A stretch of DNA of 21,483 bases, from the IMG/VR virus record IMGVR_UViG_3300032291_000277, positions 1-21,483 of that record, one strand, 5' to 3'. This DNA comes from a virus. The stretch's first letter is position 1. Every line of letters begins with the position of its first letter. Below are positions 411 to 20,310 of this stretch, in pieces. The position numbers were made by a program, and so were the translations under genes. The notes below the pieces were generated by a model. It did not search any database, had not been told where the DNA came from, and worked only from the letters and a program-made list of their open reading frames with translations.

Positions 411-1247
411 CTAGCCATTACTAATACCTTTTGGTATCTGCCTTAGGCATTTTTTACAGTAAACCAGCTTCTCGCCATGCTCGCAAAGCGGGATTGGTTC
501 GGCTGGCTTTTCTGATTCGCTAAGGATCTTCTGGGTGTTTTCCTTCTCTCGTTGGCTTTTAGCTGCTCGCTCTAATCTCTGGCGCTCGGCGATCTCGTCT
601 TGGCTAAGTTGGCGCTCTGGGTAAGGATCGTCATTCCAACCATCTCGGTTTAGCCAAGTAGTCGGGTATGGGACATACTGAAGCGCTGGCAGGTTTCGGT
701 CCTGTGCGAGCCGTATGGCTCCTGAAACGACCATAGCCTCAAAGTCCCCTGTTTCGCCCTCGTAGCGACCTCTAGCAGCCGTATACGCCCTTAGAGCGCT
801 AGTTTTGCCAACCCTGCGAGGATAACTTTCCCAGAACTGTTCAAATCTAGTCAATTCGGGTATATGTTTCTTTTCTTTGGTCTTCTTATTATTGTTCTTC
901 TTAGGGGTAGGATTTCCCGATGACGGATAATCCGATGACGGATAACCCGATGACGGATCAACGGTAGTCCAGATGCTTTCTGCGAACTGATTATTATCGC
1001 CACGCGCCTGATCCCTGCGTAAGTATCCAGCGGACTCTAGCTCGCTAATGGCGCTGCGAATTAGATCTAACCCGCATTGGTTAGCTTCCGCCAAAGATCT
1101 AATGCTTAGACGCCAGCCAACCGAGTGCGAGTGAAGTTGAGCCATCAACCCAATCGCCTTTAGGCTTAGGCGCTCATCGCGCAACCAGCGGTTAGGTAAT
1201 CGAGTAAAGCTTTCGTCAAAGTCATGCGAGCCTCTGATAATTGGCAA
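411..1247 (-). CDS. Replication initiator/helicase-loader-like winged-helix protein
   Basis: This 278-aa protein probably initiates phage DNA replication. Residues about 1-95 look like the winged helix of phage replication proteins (FTRLPNRWLRDERLSLKAIG, then WRLSIRSLAEANQCG and LESAGYLRRD). A low-complexity linker follows: three PSS[GD][YN] repeats and a Lys/Asn-rich stretch. Residues about 130-205 form a second helical domain with FEQFWESYPRR and PTTWLNRDGWNDD, typical of the C-terminal part of DnaD-like phage proteins. The end carries C-x-H-x7-C-x2-C, a possible zinc knuckle. The start is TTG at 1247, chosen for the strong GAAAGGACAAGAA just upstream. The DNA of the linker holds three iterons next to an AT-rich tract, so the gene may contain its own origin. 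Exact subfamily (DnaD or lambda O-like) is inference. Confidence 0.72.
   Translation of the reverse strand: MPIIRGSHDFDESFTRLPNRWLRDERLSLKAIGLMAQLHSHSVGWRLSIRSLAEANQCGLDLIRSAISELESAGYLRRDQARGDNNQFAESIWTTVDPSSGYPSSDYPSSGNPTPKKNNNKKTKEKKHIPELTRFEQFWESYPRRVGKTSALRAYTAARGRYEGETGDFEAMVVSGAIRLAQDRNLPALQYVPYPTTWLNRDGWNDDPYPERQLSQDEIAERQRLERAAKSQREKENTQKILSESEKPAEPIPLCEHGEKLVYCKKCLRQIPKGISNG
917..961. repeat. Three tandem 15-bp iterons, candidate replication origin
   Basis: Three adjacent units at 917-931, 932-946 and 947-961 share the 12-bp core CCGATGACGGAT, with only the last three bases varying. The core is itself partly palindromic (CCG-ATGA-CGG). The repeat is in frame and codes for PSS[GD][YN] repeats in the linker of the replication protein. 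Immediately to the left, at about 855-905, is a markedly AT-rich tract coding for the Lys/Asn-rich stretch. Iterons followed by an AT-rich unwinding region inside the initiator gene is the known layout of the lambda O origin. Origin function here is inference. Confidence 0.5.
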
Positions 1248-3754: not shown

Positions 3755-3790
3755 GCGGGTGGACCTTGAAGCTCCACCCGCTTTTATTTT
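3755..3790 (+). terminator. Rho-independent terminator facing right, in the divergent region
   Basis: GCGGGTGGA (3755-3763) and TCCACCCGC (3773-3781) form a perfect GC-rich 9-bp stem with a 9-nt loop, followed directly by TTTTATTTT on the plus strand. That is a canonical intrinsic terminator for rightward transcription. No plus-strand gene ends here. It may stop antisense transcription leaving the recombination operon, or act as a leader attenuator if the WhiB promoter lies further left. On the minus strand the same hairpin is in the 5' leader of the exonuclease gene but has no T tract there. Confidence 0.65.
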
Positions 3791-3804
3791 GCCTACAAAA
3801 GAAC

Positions 3805-3833
3805 TTTAGCTCGAACCACCGACATTTTATGCT
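3805..3833 (+). promoter_or_regulatory. Weak candidate promoter for the WhiB gene
   Basis: TTTAGC (3805-3810) and TATGCT (3828-3833) are spaced 17 bp apart and lie 31 nt before the WhiB ATG. The -10 is a fair match, while the -35 matches only half of the consensus. Just downstream, CTATTT and AAATAG form a 6-bp inverted repeat around CCGCA, which could be an operator. This is a suggestion from spacing and position only. Confidence 0.25.
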
Positions 3834-3864
3834 ATTTCCGCAAAATAGTTATAGGGTTGTTGGA

Positions 3865-4176
3865 ATGAATAGGGATAGAGCTTTTACCGAGTTTTGCCAC
3901 GCCCAAGCCGAGCTTGAGGATCGAGGCGAAACTCTCGCTTGCCGAGAGAATGCGGACTTCTTCTTTCCCGAAGACTTCTATGCGCCGAAAGCCAAGCTAC
4001 TTTCCGAGCGTATCGCGCGAATGTTATGCGATGAATGCCCCATAAAAGACTTGTGCCGAGATTACGCGATCTCGGCACAAGAGGATTATGGAATTTGGGG
4101 TGGGACTAATGCGCGTGAAAGACGCGAAGCCCGATTAGAACTTAGTCGGAAGAACCAGATTCTTCAGGCGCAATAG
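3865..4176 (+). CDS. WhiB-family iron-sulfur transcriptional regulator
   Basis: This 103-aa protein is the only plus-strand gene in the window. WhiB proteins bind a [4Fe-4S] cluster and associate with the primary sigma factor to change promoter use; phage copies can repress host WhiB genes. The four cluster cysteines are Cys26 (LAC), Cys55 and Cys58 (LCDEC) and Cys64 (DLC). The G[VI]WGG turn is at residues 76-80, followed by a basic segment (ARERREAR) that would contact DNA. ATG at 3865 was chosen because AGGG lies 8 nt upstream and it places FFFPEDF normally; the longer open frame covers non-coding leader. The gene converges on the holin and overlaps its 3' end by 35 bp. Confidence 0.93.
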   Translation: MNRDRAFTEFCHAQAELEDRGETLACRENADFFFPEDFYAPKAKLLSERIARMLCDECPIKDLCRDYAISAQEDYGIWGGTNARERREARLELSRKNQILQAQ

Positions 4177-12814: not shown

Positions 12815-13410
12815 TACGCAAACCTAACCCTACGGAATGGGGCTACAAGCGCTTGAACATCGAAGTCAATTCGGCTAATTCTCATTACGCCTAGATCTCC
12901 GACACCAGCGACACCAAGAGGAGAGTCGTATCTCTTGAACTGGCGCTGTGCCAGCATAAGTGTTGCCTGTTTGATTGCGATAGGAATTGCCGACCAACCG
13001 AAAGTTCCAACGATCTGAACAGTCGCTTCGCCACCAAAGACTGGCCATAGGAAGTCATCTACCGCGCGAATCTGTGTGAATGGGGTGACAATACCACCAG
13101 CGCGACCATTCAGCGGTTCTAGTTGGTAATCGGTAGTTTTCCAAGTCGTGTCGAAACCTTCTCCGTCAGAAGAAGTTTTGATTGTGGTAATAGAAACTAG
13201 ATCGTCAGTTTCGCAGACATAGCTGTCGTTCGGCACAAAAACTCTAGTTCCAGCGGTGCTATAAAAAACACGCTCACAGTATCCGTCTAGTTGCCGAGAG
13301 GCTGCTTCGATTGAGGTTTCTAGTAGCGAGTCATCGACAGTATCGGCACTAGGTATCCTCATTACTGCTTTCAATTCAGCTAGAGTCGCGTAGCCGTTAG
13401 TTATTGCCAT
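12814..13410 (-). CDS. Head-tail connector (gp6-like adaptor)
   Basis: This 198-aa protein fits the ring that sits below the portal and links head to tail. The N-terminus (YATLAELKAVMRIPSADTVDDSLLETSIEAASRQLDGYCER-x-F) is the classic helical bundle of gp6/gp15-type adaptors, with a first helix, an acidic D-x2-LL-x3-I-x-AAS turn and a long helix ending in C-x-R. The centre carries strands (DDLVSITTIKTSS, EATVQIVGTFGWSAIP) and is followed by a helix with IKQATLMLAQRQFKRYDSPLG, which is typical of the family. It overlaps the end of the sugar dehydrogenase gene by 14 nt, showing that the sugar cassette is now translationally joined to the tail module. Confidence 0.82.
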   Translation of the reverse strand: MAITNGYATLAELKAVMRIPSADTVDDSLLETSIEAASRQLDGYCERVFYSTAGTRVFVPNDSYVCETDDLVSITTIKTSSDGEGFDTTWKTTDYQLEPLNGRAGGIVTPFTQIRAVDDFLWPVFGGEATVQIVGTFGWSAIPIAIKQATLMLAQRQFKRYDSPLGVAGVGDLGVMRISRIDFDVQALVAPFRRVRFA

Positions 13411-14164
13411 TTTTCCTCACAAGTTCTTCGTTGTATTCGAGTAGAGCGTTGGTAGCGGTTGGAATGTTCGAGTTAGTGTTAGCCCACTTCGCCCAAGCGT
13501 AAATGTCTTTTGGCAAGCATTTGCTATTCGCGCCCCTATTACCTTCGTAAATAAAGCTCCAGCCTAATTCCATTCTAGGGTCATCGCCGTAAACGATTTC
13601 CCTGATGGTGTAATAGTCTAATCCATTGGCTTCGCAAGCGTCATACAATTCCTGCGCTTGTAGTAGCTTGAAGAAGATTGCCCTGTTTGCCGAGAGCTTG
13701 ACAACCTGAGCTTCGGCGATACTTAGTTGTCTAATGTTTAGGTTTGCATTGTAAACAGTCGTGTAAAGCTTGATAACTTCTCTGCGGTCTTCGGGATCTC
13801 CACCGATAACTATGTAAGGTGGCTGACCACCCAAAGACATAGAATGGTTAGCTGTTTCTCCGATGTATTCAGGCTGGAATACGATTCGCTTTTGATACTT
13901 CTCTTTCAGATAATCTAGAAACCCAGCATTACAGGTACTTCTAACAATAAACATCTTGGCTTCGGTGTCGCGAATAACAGCTTCGACTTCAGAACAATCC
14001 AGTTCATCTCCGACTAAGGGTGTCGGGACACAAACGAATACAAAGTCGCACCCGCTTAGATCGTCTTTCGGACCGCTGTATTTGTCATAGATTTTGGCTT
14101 GAGGAAATGCGCTTGCGGTATGTTTACCGACAACTCCATAACCAGCGACTCCGACACTAAACAT
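13397..14164 (-). CDS. Compact nucleotide-sugar dehydrogenase (UDP-glucose dehydrogenase-like)
   Basis: This 255-aa enzyme resembles UDP-sugar 6-dehydrogenases, which oxidise a nucleotide sugar to its uronic acid with NAD+. The Rossmann motif G8-x-G10-x2-G13 is present, as are VFVCVPTP (42-49), STCNAG (76-81), FQPEYIGE (96-103), EAQVVKLSAN (151-160) and the catalytic Cys216 in KCLPKD. Family members are usually about 400-450 aa; here the protein ends shortly after the catalytic segment and lacks the C-terminal UDP-binding domain. The catalytic loop reads NSKCLPKD rather than the usual GG-x-CLPKD. It may use an altered substrate or be a different sugar dehydrogenase. It follows two glycosyltransferases and probably works with them. 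GGGATAGGAAAAG precedes the ATG. Confidence 0.75.
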   Translation of the reverse strand: MFSVGVAGYGVVGKHTASAFPQAKIYDKYSGPKDDLSGCDFVFVCVPTPLVGDELDCSEVEAVIRDTEAKMFIVRSTCNAGFLDYLKEKYQKRIVFQPEYIGETANHSMSLGGQPPYIVIGGDPEDRREVIKLYTTVYNANLNIRQLSIAEAQVVKLSANRAIFFKLLQAQELYDACEANGLDYYTIREIVYGDDPRMELGWSFIYEGNRGANSKCLPKDIYAWAKWANTNSNIPTATNALLEYNEELVRKNGNN

Positions 14165-14217
14165 TTCTTTTCCTATCCCTGTTTTCTAGTTATTTTGGGC
14201 ATACTCATTCTATCGAA

Positions 14218-14865
14218 CTAATCCCAGCTGTTCTCTCGCCTAACTTTCAACGACCAGTTGCCTTCTGAGTAGTCGTTGTTTAGGATTTTGCTCTCAAACA
14301 GTTTTTGGTTCTTGCCGAAACTAACTGCGTTCTTATGCTCGTAGCCTGATTTGAGGGTAGAGCTATTTTCGTGATGAACCTTAGCGTCTATGTAGTTAGT
14401 CAGGAAACCGACTTTGTGTATTCTGCGCTGGTAATCGTCATCGTCAAAATAGGTAGGGTATAGGCGCTCATCAAACAGTCCTACTTCTTCAACCAGTTTC
14501 TCGCCTAGCACTAGCGCTGACCAATTAGGCTCGATGTTTAGGAAGTTTAGAGTTGTCGGATCTACTTCTTTAGCAATTTTCTCTAACGAACCCGCCTCAA
14601 ACCAAGCGTCATCATTGACTAATAGCCAGTAAGGCGCGTGAGGCGTGGACTTTACGATTAGATTCATCCCGCCAACGAAGCCTAGATTGTAAGGAACTTC
14701 TATGTGCCAAAGATTTTGGACTAGATCTGGTTTGCGTGGTTGCCAAGATTTACTGCCAGAATTATTTACAATTACCAGATGTTCGACTGGATAATCTATT
14801 GAGTCGAGTAGCCTTTCCGCTAGATCGAAGCGCTTTAGCGTTGCGAACCCAAGTACAGGAATCAT
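14218..14865 (-). CDS. Family 2 (GT-A) glycosyltransferase
   Basis: This 215-aa protein has the GT-A plan. The N-terminus (VLGFATLKRFDLAERLLDSID) starts the nucleotide-binding fold, VEHLVIVNNSGS forms the next strand, LGFVGGMN (61-68) is the usual loop contacting the donor, and LLVNDDAWF carries the metal-binding Asp pair (D85-D86). VGLFDERLYPTYFDDDDYQRRIHKVG (about 127-153) holds the acceptor and catalytic acidic residues. It lacks membrane segments and would act in the cytoplasm. The acceptor could be virion protein, host glycan or DNA; the sequence does not say. The ATG overlaps the GT4 stop (ATGA), so both enzymes are translated together. There is no sign of decay. Confidence 0.82.
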   Translation of the reverse strand: MIPVLGFATLKRFDLAERLLDSIDYPVEHLVIVNNSGSKSWQPRKPDLVQNLWHIEVPYNLGFVGGMNLIVKSTPHAPYWLLVNDDAWFEAGSLEKIAKEVDPTTLNFLNIEPNWSALVLGEKLVEEVGLFDERLYPTYFDDDDYQRRIHKVGFLTNYIDAKVHHENSSTLKSGYEHKNAVSFGKNQKLFESKILNNDYSEGNWSLKVRRENSWD

Positions 14866-16064
14866 GCTAGAAGTTTCCCTAGCGTGGGCAGCCAGTATTT
14901 CTTCCAGACATTCTCAACATCGAACTCTTTAGCAAAGTCAATAGACACCTGTGACTTTTCACGACTCTCTGCGTAGGCTTCTTCTAGCGCCTTTACTATT
15001 GACGGAATGTTCGGGGTCTGCCACCAAGCGTTCTGACCACTATCCCAAGCTGGTGTGCCATCAACTAACCAACCGTCTTCGGAAACTAGATCGGGAGTCG
15101 CAGCCCAATTAGAGCCAATTACCCTAGTGCCACACGCTTGTGCTTCCATTGTCGGCACTCCGAAACCTTCGCCGTAAGAAGTTGCGAGCATAACATCGAA
15201 AGCTGTATAGAAGGCTGCTAGATCCGAGTGCGACAAACCGAATCGGTAGTCGTTAGGATCGGGAAAGCATACTGCGTCTTCGGGAATGCCTAAACTCGAA
15301 AGCAAACTCGGCAAGTTCCAGCCACCTGATCTGCCCATCGGATCTGTGTGTAAATAAAGAACCGCATCTGGATACTTCTTCTGAAAGATTGAGAAAGCCA
15401 TAATGTTTTCGCTGAAAGCTTTGCGGTGAACCATACCGCTGGCTTTGTTTGCTGCGACCATTCCCACAACGAACTTATCCTTCGGTGCTAATAGTTCGCG
15501 AGCGCTTTTGCCATTGGATAATTTGTAAGTCGGTTTCATAACCTTAGTGTCTATGGCGTGAGGCACATACTCGCATTCGATACCCGCCTTCTCCATTTGA
15601 CGGACTCCGTTTGGTGCCATCGCGATTGGGGTCACATTAGGTTTTTTTAGAAAGGCTTCGACTTCTGCTGGCATTGTCACATGATCTAACGGAACCCAAG
15701 CGCCAATCTTTCTCAGCTTGTCATACTGCTTTGACTTCATAACCCAAACATCGTAAAGACTAATGAATACATCATTCAGATCGGGGAACTTAGAAATAAA
15801 CATTTGATGATCGTTCGGCGCGACATCATTACTGTATAGATCTAACCCGCGCGGGAAATGTTTTACCTTTCCGTATGGAGTCTTGATTGTGTTGATGATT
15901 CCCTCTAGTCCGTAGTTAGACAACATCGCAACATCAGCACCATCGCGCACTAAGCGATCTACTAGAAGTTTTACTTGCTGTCCGTAGCCAGTCGGGGAAT
16001 CGTAGGAATTAGACCAGACACTAATCGCGCCTGATAATGGTTTCTCTCTTTTAGTCATACTCAC
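14862..16064 (-). CDS. Family 4 (GT-B) glycosyltransferase
   Basis: This protein of about 400 aa is a retaining GT-B enzyme. The N-terminal domain contains the glycine-rich loop SPTGYGQQVKLLVDRL. The domain boundary has PNGV and YVPHAIDTKVMKP, then VVGMVAANK with RKAF starts the C-terminal donor-binding domain. GEGFGVPTMEAQACGTRVI (298-316) is the E-x7-E motif (E299, E307) that binds the nucleotide-sugar donor. The start may be GTG at 16064 or ATG at 16058; neither has a strong ribosome site. A terminator lies between this gene and the capsid gene, so it may depend on readthrough or on its own promoter. The substrate is unknown. Confidence 0.85.
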   Translation of the reverse strand: MSMTKREKPLSGAISVWSNSYDSPTGYGQQVKLLVDRLVRDGADVAMLSNYGLEGIINTIKTPYGKVKHFPRGLDLYSNDVAPNDHQMFISKFPDLNDVFISLYDVWVMKSKQYDKLRKIGAWVPLDHVTMPAEVEAFLKKPNVTPIAMAPNGVRQMEKAGIECEYVPHAIDTKVMKPTYKLSNGKSARELLAPKDKFVVGMVAANKASGMVHRKAFSENIMAFSIFQKKYPDAVLYLHTDPMGRSGGWNLPSLLSSLGIPEDAVCFPDPNDYRFGLSHSDLAAFYTAFDVMLATSYGEGFGVPTMEAQACGTRVIGSNWAATPDLVSEDGWLVDGTPAWDSGQNAWWQTPNIPSIVKALEEAYAESREKSQVSIDFAKEFDVENVWKKYWLPTLGKLLA

Positions 16065-16123: not shown

Positions 16124-17281
16124 TTAGCTTGCTGCGCCCTTGAAGTACTTGATGTGTCCTGCGTGAGTCAGGTTTCCATCAACGCGCATGGTCACGCGGA
16201 AGGTGGTTACATCTTGGTTGAATGCGTAGTCCGCAGACTGAGCAACCTGAATACCGCCAGCCATACGAACCTTGTAGCTAGGTAGGTGTCCGAATAGTAC
16301 GGAACCAACAACAGCAGTTCCAGCTGAAGGTAGAGCAGGGTTCTCAGAGATTGGGAAACCAGCGAATGTGTCAGGCTGACCTACGCCGACCTGATACAAG
16401 TAGTTTCCTGCTGAGTCCTTGAGCTTGCGAATCGCACCAACAGAAGCAGAGTTAGCCATGTAAGCAACTCCTGGCAGTCTGCGAGCAGCGCCGTCTAGTG
16501 AGTAAGCAAGGTCAATTAGGTTGTCGGCAGTGAATCCACCAGCAACACCAGTTCCACCTGTGATACCAGAACCAGCAACAGTTCTTACACCAGTCGGCTG
16601 AACAGTTCCAGTTCCGTTGGTTAGACCATCGTTTACTGAGTAACCAATTGCGTTACCAGCCTGTTCTGCGATCAGACCAGAGATGTCGAAACCAGCATCA
16701 GAGATTAGCTCGTTGGCTACTGGTACCAAGAATGAGTACTTGTATGCGCCTAGAGTAATCGAGCTGAAGGTTGGCTCGGAGTCGGAAATTGCTGAACCAG
16801 CACCCTTGATAGTTGCGGTTGAGTAAGCGGTCAAGGTTGGAATGGTTAGGTTCTCACCAGAGGTTGTGTTGATAACCTGTGAGGTTTCTAGCATTGGACC
16901 AACTAGACGAGCTACCTGAAATACCTCATCGTAGAACGACTTTGGTACTGTGTTGTCAGAAGGAACGAGAGTACGCTTTGAGAAATCAAATGAGCGTAGT
17001 TCTCCGCCAGCGATCTGACGAAGAATGTCTGCGTCTGATCTTGACTCGGTGGCAGGAACGAACTCGCGACCTGCGTCAGCAGCTGCGGTCATTCTTTCCT
17101 CGTTGCGCTGAGCAACTCCGATTGCTTCTTCAGCTGAACGAATGTCAGCCTCGATCTTTTCAATCTTCGATACTTCTTCAGCTAGTAGTCCGCGCTTTTC
17201 AGCTTCGGCGAAGTCTGTGACCTCACGGATCTGGCTGACCAAGTTTGCTCGAAGTTCTTGCTGTGCCTTGATAAAGGACAT
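16124..17281 (-). CDS. HK97-fold major capsid protein
   Basis: This 385-aa protein builds the icosahedral head. Residues about 1-75 are a charged coiled coil (LRANLVSQIREVTDFAEAEK and EEVSKIEKIEADIRSAEEAIG) that acts as the scaffolding delta domain and is normally removed by the prohead protease. The mature part starts near residue 95-105 and contains VPKSFYDEVFQVARLVGPML, ENLTIPTLTAYSTATIKGAG, EPTFSSITLGAYKYSFLVPVANELISD and, near the end, FNQDVTTFRVTMRVDGNLTHAGHIKYFKG. These blocks are the E-loop, spine and P-domain segments of the HK97 family. AATAGGAG before ATG is the strongest ribosome site in the window, fitting the most abundant virion protein. It is followed by a terminator. Confidence 0.93.
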   Translation of the reverse strand: MSFIKAQQELRANLVSQIREVTDFAEAEKRGLLAEEVSKIEKIEADIRSAEEAIGVAQRNEERMTAAADAGREFVPATESRSDADILRQIAGGELRSFDFSKRTLVPSDNTVPKSFYDEVFQVARLVGPMLETSQVINTTSGENLTIPTLTAYSTATIKGAGSAISDSEPTFSSITLGAYKYSFLVPVANELISDAGFDISGLIAEQAGNAIGYSVNDGLTNGTGTVQPTGVRTVAGSGITGGTGVAGGFTADNLIDLAYSLDGAARRLPGVAYMANSASVGAIRKLKDSAGNYLYQVGVGQPDTFAGFPISENPALPSAGTAVVGSVLFGHLPSYKVRMAGGIQVAQSADYAFNQDVTTFRVTMRVDGNLTHAGHIKYFKGAAS

Positions 17282-18253: not shown

Positions 18254-18457
18254 TTATCGCCTTTCGGCAGCCCCTACGACACGCGTTTCTTTTGTCGCGC
18301 TTGATTGTGAGTTATTATCGGCACTACTTTGTGCCCCTCCACTAATCAGCTTGACGATTGCTTCAGCCCACAAATCTGCGTACTGAACAACTACACCTGA
18401 CTCTGGGTTGCCAGCGGTGTTTAGGATCGTGTCTTTGATTTCTTGTTTAGTAGCCAT
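18254..18457 (-). CDS. Small conserved protein after the protease gene
   Basis: This 67-aa protein starts with a helix (TKQEIKDTILNTAGNPESGVV), continues YADLWAEAIVKLIS and ends in a Ser/Asn-rich tail with KETRVVGAAERR. The layout of KEIKD-x-IL-x2-AGNP-x-SG, an Ala-rich helix and a final KETRV is typical of a small protein that follows the prohead protease in actinophages; its role is unknown to me. The ATG overlaps the protease stop (TAATG at 18457). It is the last gene before the terminator. Expression should match the protease, and a head-assembly accessory function would be the simplest guess. Confidence 0.6.
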   Translation of the reverse strand: MATKQEIKDTILNTAGNPESGVVVQYADLWAEAIVKLISGGAQSSADNNSQSSATKETRVVGAAERR

Positions 18458-19182
18458 TACATCTCCATTAGTTTGAGTTTGAATTTCTTCAGCTCTAGCA
18501 TCGAAAGATCTCCGTTGTCTTCCGCAATAGCTTCTGAAGTCTGTTCGGCTTTTGGTACTAGTTCGCTAATTGCTGTGCGTAGCAATTCCGCTGCTTCAGG
18601 AGTTAGATCCTTGCCTTCTTCCAGTAGCAACATCGCGTCAGCTAGTTCATCTACATCTAGCAAAGCTCTTTCGGCTAATGCTGCGAGTCCACGAACTGAG
18701 GTTGTGCCAGCAGTCGAGGTATACGCGGGGAAAGCCACAATCGAAACTTCGTGAAGTCGGACAGATTTTAGAGTGCGCTCTGTGCCTTCTTGGTTCCAAG
18801 TATCTCCGCCAGCAGGAACACTAAACCCGAAAGACATAGAATCTACATCTCCGCGCTTTAGTAGCACCGCAGCATCGCGTCCGCTAGTCGTATTCGGTAG
18901 CGTTGCCGATACCCTTAGACCTTTATCATCTTCTACGAGCTTTAGAGTTCCAGCGCGGGTAGATCCTAGAACTGCGCTAGTGTCGTGGTTCCAGAGTAGC
19001 TTGATGTCATTACGAGCTTGCTTTAGACTGCGGTTGAAAGCACCGCGCTTGATACGCTCGATAAAGGGTAGTGGCTCGCTTGGGGAATCGAAGATTGCTG
19101 CGTATCCCTCAAATGTCATACCACTTGCGTCTTCGCGGATCTCAAATTCAGAAACGCTAACTCTTTGTTCTACTTTTGCCAT
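18457..19182 (-). CDS. Possible internally initiated 241-aa prohead protease
   Basis: ATG at 19182 (MAKVEQRVSVSEFEIRED) begins exactly where the conserved protease domain starts and is preceded by AGAAAGTGAAAGC, a moderate ribosome site. The product would be 241 aa, the normal size for HK97-type proteases. In-frame internal starts in protease/scaffold genes are known from lambda C/Nu3, although there the short product is the scaffold. This is a proposal and not a separate gene. Confidence 0.4.
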   Translation of the reverse strand: MAKVEQRVSVSEFEIREDASGMTFEGYAAIFDSPSEPLPFIERIKRGAFNRSLKQARNDIKLLWNHDTSAVLGSTRAGTLKLVEDDKGLRVSATLPNTTSGRDAAVLLKRGDVDSMSFGFSVPAGGDTWNQEGTERTLKSVRLHEVSIVAFPAYTSTAGTTSVRGLAALAERALLDVDELADAMLLLEEGKDLTPEAAELLRTAISELVPKAEQTSEAIAEDNGDLSMLELKKFKLKLMEM

Positions 19183-20310
19183 GCTTTCACTTTCTACGCT
19201 AATTTTTGCGCGATTTTCTTCTTCCAGTTTAGCCTTCACTCGGTTGGCGTAAGCTAATGCCCTTTGTGCGGATCTTTTACTTGGACCAGATCCCCAAAGC
19301 AAATGAGCAACCACACCAGCACTTGGGTAGTTTTCGTTGCTTGGGTTTGCTGCTGGCGCATCTAGGTCTGATGTGTGTCGCGCGATCCAAGCTCCCATCC
19401 GCACCCATTTGTCAGCAGTCACATTTCCCGCAGCCATAGCACGAGCCTCGCGAATAGTTGCGTCTACTAAGCCATCTCCGCCTAAGCCCTGTTCGTAGTA
19501 GCGCAAGCCTTGTCGTGCTGCTGCTCTCATAAAGGCTGGTGGGGTTAGGTTTACTGCGCGATCTTCTAGGTCGGCAGATCTAGTTAGAGGCTGGATTTTA
19601 GTGAGCGTGGAGAATCTGTGTCCGACTAGGGTTTCGGTTTCGTTCCATTCGCCGTCTGCCTCACGATAGATTCGAATCAGCGCAGCAGGATCTTCAGGAG
19701 TTGCGTTGATAGAGAAACTGCTATCAGGAATACCTAGTGTGCCTTCTCGCATAATGTATTCGATACGACCTCGAGCGCGTCCGCCTGATGAGTTCCAAGA
19801 AACGAAGTCCCCTTCGGATAGAGCATTCGGTTCAGCCCTGTCTTCTTCTAGATCCTCAATAACATCTTCAGCTGGGTCTGTCGGTTCATTCGGGTCATCC
19901 ATGCTTTCTGGATCTTCTTCTTCCATAGTGTCAGCCTCGTAAGCAATCATTTCTGGTCTAGGGATTCGCTTTAGCTTTAGTATGTTGAGAATCATCAACT
20001 TGTCTTCTGGCGAATAGACCATGTTCTCGTCTAGCTCAAAAATACGCAATACCGCATACTCGCCGTTTACTTCTACAACTTGTGCCAGTATCTTTGGGTC
20101 ATCAACATTCCAGCTAACATAGTCCCCAATTTTTAGCTGACCGACTGCTGCGCGTTCGCCGTCAAATGGCTCATCGGTGCTAAGGCTAATTGCTACTGCT
20201 TGTTTGATTGCCGATGCCTTAGTTGTGTGACAGCCGTAAAAGCCATCTCCGCCATCTACGACAGCCCAGCCATCACACTCTGCGTTTTTGCCAGTTATGA
20301 AATAAGGCAT
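18457..20310 (-). CDS. Prohead maturation protease fused to long N-terminal region (S78)
   Basis: The 617-aa frame ends in a complete S78 prohead protease (about 377-540) that cleaves the capsid delta domain. Likely catalytic residues are His442 in LLWNHD, Ser491 or Ser493 in DSMSFGF, and Glu521 in LHEVSIVAFPAY. The N-terminal part is unusual: a CDGWAVVDGGDGFYGCHTTKASA segment (12-34), two SH3/Tudor-like barrels (KIGDYVSWN at about 60 and EGDFVSWNSSGGRARGRIE at about 165) linked by an acidic stretch (about 125-160), and a helical domain with YPSAGVVAHLLWGSGPSKR near 330-348. HK97 proteases are about 225 aa. An ATG at 19182 would give a 241-aa protease alone. It precedes the capsid gene, as expected. 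Confidence 0.85.
   Translation of the reverse strand: MPYFITGKNAECDGWAVVDGGDGFYGCHTTKASAIKQAVAISLSTDEPFDGERAAVGQLKIGDYVSWNVDDPKILAQVVEVNGEYAVLRIFELDENMVYSPEDKLMILNILKLKRIPRPEMIAYEADTMEEEDPESMDDPNEPTDPAEDVIEDLEEDRAEPNALSEGDFVSWNSSGGRARGRIEYIMREGTLGIPDSSFSINATPEDPAALIRIYREADGEWNETETLVGHRFSTLTKIQPLTRSADLEDRAVNLTPPAFMRAAARQGLRYYEQGLGGDGLVDATIREARAMAAGNVTADKWVRMGAWIARHTSDLDAPAANPSNENYPSAGVVAHLLWGSGPSKRSAQRALAYANRVKAKLEEENRAKISVESESMAKVEQRVSVSEFEIREDASGMTFEGYAAIFDSPSEPLPFIERIKRGAFNRSLKQARNDIKLLWNHDTSAVLGSTRAGTLKLVEDDKGLRVSATLPNTTSGRDAAVLLKRGDVDSMSFGFSVPAGGDTWNQEGTERTLKSVRLHEVSIVAFPAYTSTAGTTSVRGLAALAERALLDVDELADAMLLLEEGKDLTPEAAELLRTAISELVPKAEQTSEAIAEDNGDLSMLELKKFKLKLMEM

Follow-up and report, generated by a model that had tools for sequence, protein, structure and literature searches.

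The initiator gene and its dyad array

The window, meaning the whole stretch of DNA analysed here, comprises 21,483 nt (positions 1–21,483 of the IMG/VR virus record IMGVR_UViG_3300032291_000277). The features around which the analysis turns all lie in one replication initiator gene and are, in coding order:

411..1247, minus strand: replication initiator gene, an open reading frame of 278 aa with a TTG start
963..1247, minus strand: winged-helix DNA-binding domain, residues 1–95 (PF13730 match and AlphaFold2 model)
947..956: dyad 1 in coding order, CCGTCATCGG on the minus strand, encoding PSSG
932..941: dyad 2, CCGTCATCGG, encoding PSSD
917..926: dyad 3, CCGTCATCGG, encoding PSSG
852..911, minus strand: A-rich tract, a candidate unwinding element, 65% AT, directly downstream of the dyads in the coding direction
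510..851, minus strand: C domain of the FWxxYPRK type, residues 133–246, helical in the AlphaFold2 model

The start codon is ATG in relatives at 71% identity and beyond, as opposed to the TTG of the window. An HNH nuclease gene lies alongside the initiator gene, with the YqaJ exonuclease and WhiB genes farther off, and the relatives of the window phage include actinobacterial phages and prophages.

In the Pfam scan, residues 26–76 of the initiator match PF13730 (HTH_36; E = 4.3e-8, 33.3 bits against a cut-off of 25), and no other domain attains its cut-off; the best PHROG is 270, replication initiation protein (E = 2e-29). The AlphaFold2 model (mean pLDDT 84.5) has a confident N domain at residues 1–95, a disordered linker at about 100–130, and a helical C domain at 133–246. 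A fold search with the N domain returns generic winged helices with several initiators topmost, the likeness to RctB domain 1, Geobacillus DnaB, the NTD of plasmid RepA and the DnaD NTD being middling (Z 6.7–9.3), and a sequence search of the PDB gave no significant relative. The C domain matches the C-terminal regions of PHROG primosomal and initiation proteins.

The array itself lies about 290 bp into the gene, between the N and C domains, and has three units only. The string CCGATGACGGAT is found at 917–928, 932–943, and 947–958, a step of exactly 15 bp, and forms the top-scoring tandem repeat of the window; allowing up to two mismatches, the 12-mer has five copies in the window where 0.8 are expected, a count attained in 0 of 100 shuffles. 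Read on the coding strand, a unit consists of CCGTCATCGG and a 5-bp A/T-rich spacer, so that the array spells PSSGY-PSSDY-PSSGN in frame with 411–1247. The element that is conserved is, however, the 10-bp dyad CCG-N4-CGG and not the 12-bp string. All three units use the codons CCG-TCA-TCG, none of them a frequent choice in this phage (15%, 16%, and 14% of the codons for the respective amino acid), and with the codon usage of the window the chance of the three units agreeing through codon choice alone is about 4e-4. The bare count of CCG-N4-CGG is not unusual (six in the window vs. 2.4 expected); it is the tandem arrangement at 15 bp that is. The three tandem 15-bp units with an identical 12-bp core, from which the original prediction had started, are thus confirmed at 917, 932, and 947, and their assignment to a linker between a winged-helix N domain and a C domain is upheld by the PF13730 match and the AlphaFold2 model.

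Conservation of the dyads in relatives

Relatives were gathered in two sets: 71 loci found via a pattern inside the N domain only, reduced to 42 clusters below 80% identity, and 36 clusters around the Rep protein of phage TP901-1, giving 78 diverged initiator clusters in combination. Relatives at 92%–95% identity keep all core codons. At greater distance the core remains fixed while its surroundings drift: nine of nine core codons are identical between the window and L031 (71% identity) vs. 51% of the other codons for shared residues, and again nine of nine vs. 40% in L036 (55% identity). In L033 the peptide is altered to PSLDY-PSTAH-PRTEN, encoded by CCGTCGTTGG, CCGTCGACGG, and CCGCGCACGG, so that the half-sites are unchanged while the middle of the dyad and the protein differ. 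The units of L042 likewise differ in peptide and keep the dyad (CCGTTGGCGG/CCGTTGCCGG/CCGTCATCGG).

Across the 42 clusters, CCG-N4-CGG is the most recurrent of 45,056 gapped pairs of 3-mers in the linkers, with 74 copies against 15.0 under a synonymous redraw of the codons (sd 3.3, maximum 28 in 2000 redraws); elsewhere in the same genes there are four copies in the N part, a longer stretch than the linker, and 15 in the rest. Pairs of CC-N6-GG at a lag of 15 bp are found in 32 of the 42 clusters, and any other lag, 30 excepted, in at most four. The TP901-1 set behaves in the same manner, with lag 15 in 23 of 36 clusters, lag 30 in 22, and nearly nothing else. Altogether, arrays of CCN-N4-NGG every 15 bp are found in 57 of the 78 clusters (40 in frame 0 and 17 in frame 1) and spell 123 different pentapeptides, although these counts are not independent events, as the clusters share ancestry. 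A tree of the clusters, weakly resolved and with few supported forks, implies at least five changes of frame and at least 14 of half-site. A CC-N6-GG array at 15 bp is absent from the other 21 of the 78 clusters, some of which have other repeated dyads (CTAATGTTAG in L081, GGATCATCC in L085) and some no evident one.

The half-sites, moreover, vary in step: CCG with CGG, CCA with TGG, and CCT with AGG. Of 180 units, 145 have complementary bases at positions 3 and 8 of the dyad, where 79.5 are expected and the highest permutation reached 100. With the units set by the protein alone, as a proline at every fifth residue, 149 of 214 cases show a silent proline base that complements the middle base of the codon two positions later, compared with 85 expected (maximum 111 in 5000 permutations), and permutation within genes gives P = 0.0002. 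Proline is thus written CCG where Ser, Thr, Ala, or Pro stands two codons on (97/116), and CCA where Val, Leu, Met, or Ile does (40/56); the wobble base of the third codon is G in 129 of 155 protein-defined units vs. a background of 25%. As a silent base tracks a base two codons away, a constraint on the protein is insufficient as the cause, and the codon comparisons indicate that selection is acting on the DNA of the linker, not on the encoded peptide. This agrees with the earlier suggestion of a linker whose sequence DNA sites have shaped: relatives conserve the dyad while the peptide changes, and in the alignment of homologues free synonymous change of the core is not seen, the core codons staying fixed where relatives have a PSS linker. 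A coevolution of dyad type with residues of the N domain was also considered and set aside, as the top-ranking columns fall outside the recognition helix and are confounded by ancestry.

Reverse search for the bare array

In the opposite direction, we scanned viral contigs for four copies of CCG-N4-CGG at 15 bp and identified the host gene only afterwards. In 66 of the 80 matches listed, the array lies 14–48 residues past the winged helix of a member of the HTH_36 initiator family, whereas with a control spacing of 18 bp none of the 80 matches listed belongs to that family, the two scans being compared by the nature of the matches listed and not by totals. Among the 14 listed 15-bp matches outside the family, 12 are low-complexity proteins (PPPTE, AAPAP, DNGTT, or Gly-rich); L237 and L262 seem to belong to the family, with the N domain displaced or cut off. 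A spacing of 16 bp was met at three loci only in the viral scan, two of which (L314 and L316) are HTH_36-type initiators. There, the spacing carries one dyad through all three reading frames, giving in L314 the peptides PLSEN, TDNGE, TRQRE, and PSSV.

The A-rich tract

The AT-rich tract expected beside the repeats is indeed present: 855–910 is 66% AT, where the gene as a whole has 50% and the window 53%, and 3.3% of the window's 56-bp stretches are as AT-rich. Within 852..911, TAAGAAGAACAA at 892–903 and TAAGAAGACCAA at 877–888 are themselves 15 bp apart. In relatives, the tract that follows the array has a mean of 62% AT, compared with 46% for the genes, and in 16 of 32 it falls within the top 5% of the gene's 60-nt windows for AT.

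The tract at 852–911 also carries TAAGAANAC(TA) and TAAGAANACTA repeats, of the TAAGAA type. Tract repeats run at 15-bp steps in L046, L071, and L079 as well, and are in a different frame in L085 and L087. The TAAGAANAC(TA) repeats could belong to the unwinding element; since most copies share one frame, a protein cause is possible too. As a separate observation, the AT-rich unwinding tract of lambda, GACACTATTACAAAAGAA in the O gene (L185), resembles the tracts of L039, L045, and L048. In L039, AACACTATTACTAAAGAA agrees with the lambda tract at 16 of 18 positions; chance, a shared protein motif, and a shared DNA element are all possible explanations. The tract motif shared with lambda (ACTATTAC.AAAGAA) reaches p ≤ 0.05 against codon-shuffled tracts in 11 of 42 genes, a weak lead.

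Comparison with lambda, TP901-1, 80alpha and plasmid initiators

The original prediction had called the locus lambda-O-like, and the order of parts inside the gene is indeed shared: as in the window, the DNA-binding domain of lambda O is N-terminal, and its gene has dyad iterons in the DNA of the linker with an AT-rich unwinding region adjoining them (PMC6022878). The parts themselves are different. Lambda O matches PF04492 (Phage_rep_O) at 6e-36, whereas the Pfam scan of the window protein gave no match to PF04492, and its O-like PHROG matches are weak (E of 3e-4 to 8e-4). The iterons of lambda are four 18-bp units, ATCCCTCAAAACGAGGGA, at spacings of 20, 24, and 23 bp in mixed frames, with long half-sites (CCCTC...GAGGG), compared with the 10-bp CCG-N4-CGG every 15 bp in the window. 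Kinship with lambda O was rejected on the N domain and the iterons; lambda O is an analogue of the window initiator, with a different domain and different iterons.

By its domain and the placing of its repeats, the nearest experimentally studied relative of the window initiator is the Rep of TP901-1 and Tuc2009. TP901-1 Rep (ORF13) and Rep2009 of Tuc2009 are reported to bind direct repeats in their own genes that serve as ori (PMC8965321). TP901-1 Rep is an HTH_36 protein with CCAGATGTGG dyads 15 bp apart, placed as in the window: the array has CCAGATGTGG twice and an imperfect first unit, CCAGATTCCG, and in both genes 15-bp CC-N6-GG units come after the winged helix and are followed by an A/T-rich tract. 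The half-site differs at dyad positions 3 and 8, A/T in TP901-1 and G/C in the window, and the Lactococcus host of TP901-1 has an AT-rich genome. The DnaB_2 (DnaD-like) C domain of TP901-1 Rep is not found in the window protein, but it is not defining, since the Rep of Staphylococcus phage 80alpha is without DnaB_2 too. Like the window protein, that of 80alpha has an N domain of this family (by a weak HTH_36 match), and its gene carries tandem 15-bp dyads in the linker along with the A/T-rich tract; it differs in its Phg_2220_C C domain and in the reading frame of the dyads, which here give TVNGK peptides; the 80alpha record has a rep_origin annotated at the place equivalent to the window array.

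A PF13730 domain, 15-bp dyad repeats conserved as DNA, and an adjoining A/T-rich tract are thus all found in the window. Because lambda shares the plan and not the parts, while TP901-1 Rep shares domain, place, and spacing, the window very probably joins the TP901-1-like in-gene origins of HTH_36 initiators. With TP901-1 Rep as the closest characterised relative, the window array is probably not an independent invention, contrary to what had first been suggested.

A similar plan is known from plasmids. In pSK41 (RepA_N), the origin lies in the rep coding region and is bound by the N domain, and the central part encoded by ori is a linker that is dispensable in trans; between pPR9 and pSK41, the N domain and origin differ as one block of ~500 bp, the N domain of pPR9 being HTH_36/PF13730 (PMC5703833). 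The pPR9 linker has degenerate 15-bp units, CCGTTTACTG and CCGGATACGG. Unlike the window initiator, pSK41 has PF06970, to which the Pfam scan of the window protein gave no match, as well as other Rep boxes, and the C domains are plasmid-specific. The window N domain compares with the RepA_N structures 4pql, 4pt7, and 4pta at a middling Z of 6.7–7.8, so that RepA_N plasmids share the plan with the window and perhaps the fold.

Clear arrays are present in five of eight plasmid relatives, those of Prescottella, Enterococcus, Streptomyces, Leptospira, and Caldicellulosiruptor. The Piscirickettsia plasmid has no clear array and has transposase genes directly after the initiator gene; the Bacillus carboniphilus plasmid, also with no clear array, has a CCG-N5-CGG variant 31 bp apart. 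The initiator of the Enterococcus faecium DUF6017 plasmid (L188) has six dyads and that of the Leptospira plasmid (L191) four, in each case 15 bp apart, suggesting one origin layout that serves conjugative and spirochaete plasmids alike.

A probable replication origin inside the initiator gene

On this basis, we consider it very probable that the array marks the replication origin of the phage, lying inside its initiator gene. The case is built on sequence comparison, and selection at the DNA level would look alike were the dyads an operator or the sites of another protein.

The first of these, in which the initiator or another regulator would block transcription of the gene by binding the array, with the origin elsewhere, we regard as unlikely. 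Selection on DNA-binding sites fits it equally well, and autoregulation is frequent among plasmid initiators; yet the dyads are some 290 bp into the gene and adjoin an A-rich tract that is conserved too, the equivalent repeats of TP901-1 and Tuc2009 are reported to be used as the origin (PMC8965321), and a rep_origin is marked at the equivalent place in the 80alpha record. A double role of the array, as operator and origin, is possible.

Binding by a different factor, such as host DnaA or a partition or packaging protein, is very unlikely. The correlation between dyad type and residues of the N domain leaves some room for it, being confounded by ancestry, but the array goes with one N domain in phages and plasmids from several bacterial phyla whose initiators differ in their C domains, and the Rep proteins of TP901-1 and Tuc2009 (PMC8965321) and of pSK41 (PMC5703833) are reported to bind sites within their own genes.

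Scarcely credible is a protein feature, namely a flexible Pro-rich pentapeptide linker grown by tandem duplication whose likeness in DNA stems from ancestry and codon bias: the linker is predicted to be disordered, the three identical units could be recent copies, and a proline recurs every five residues in many relatives, but the reading is already contradicted by the sequences at hand, in which the dyad in frame 1 encodes unrelated peptides and in L314 and L316 passes through all three frames of a single gene, the choice of proline codon varies in concert with a base two codons off, dyads are fivefold above the synonymous expectation, and the units of L042 change peptide and keep the dyad.

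For an origin within the gene, we propose that the winged-helix N domain (963..1247) binds the dyads, probably as one dimer per dyad. With several copies of the initiator bound, the DNA would be distorted and the neighbouring A-rich tract opened; the C domain (510..851), tethered by the disordered linker, is proposed as the recruiter of the replication machinery, bringing in the helicase or its loader. That the dyads are kept while peptide and frame vary, taken with the outcome of the reverse search, suggests that the peptide of the linker follows for the most part from the binding sites, with flexibility as the only demand on it.

Whether this extends to the family is a broader claim, which we favour on balance, though with reservation: the linker of an HTH_36 initiator would be the read-out of a row of 15-bp CCN-N4-NGG dyads forming the origin, in phages and plasmids from several bacterial phyla. 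If so, the DNA site would allow prediction of the sequence of the linker, its silent codons, and its reading frame, and sequence alone would suffice to locate origins in uncultured phages. To our knowledge, most phage origins are unmapped; as 66 of the 80 listed array matches lead to an initiator gene, many origins of uncultured phages could be predicted by scanning. In mycobacteriophage RepA systems, the origin has only been guessed to lie within or adjoining the gene (PMC7157519), and in the open-access papers searched we found no description of the family-wide pattern. The locus would be a tidy example of a stretch of protein whose sequence is dictated by the DNA to which the protein would bind, with silent codons, residues, and frame following the site.

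Other observations in the window

Elsewhere in the window, a WhiB regulator gene (3781–4176, plus strand) adjoins the exonuclease gene and lies on the strand opposite to its neighbours; a WhiB gene is likewise found close to the initiator in Pontimonas phage phiPsal1. At 13397–16064, a UDP-glucose/GDP-mannose dehydrogenase-like gene, an unassigned gene, and a group-1 glycosyltransferase gene are found between the major capsid gene (16124–17281) and the head-tail genes, where sugar-modifying genes are not usually seen. Finally, the gene at 18457–20310 encodes a protein of 617 aa that joins a prohead protease (PF04586) to a long N-terminal extension containing a TUDOR-like domain (PF11160).
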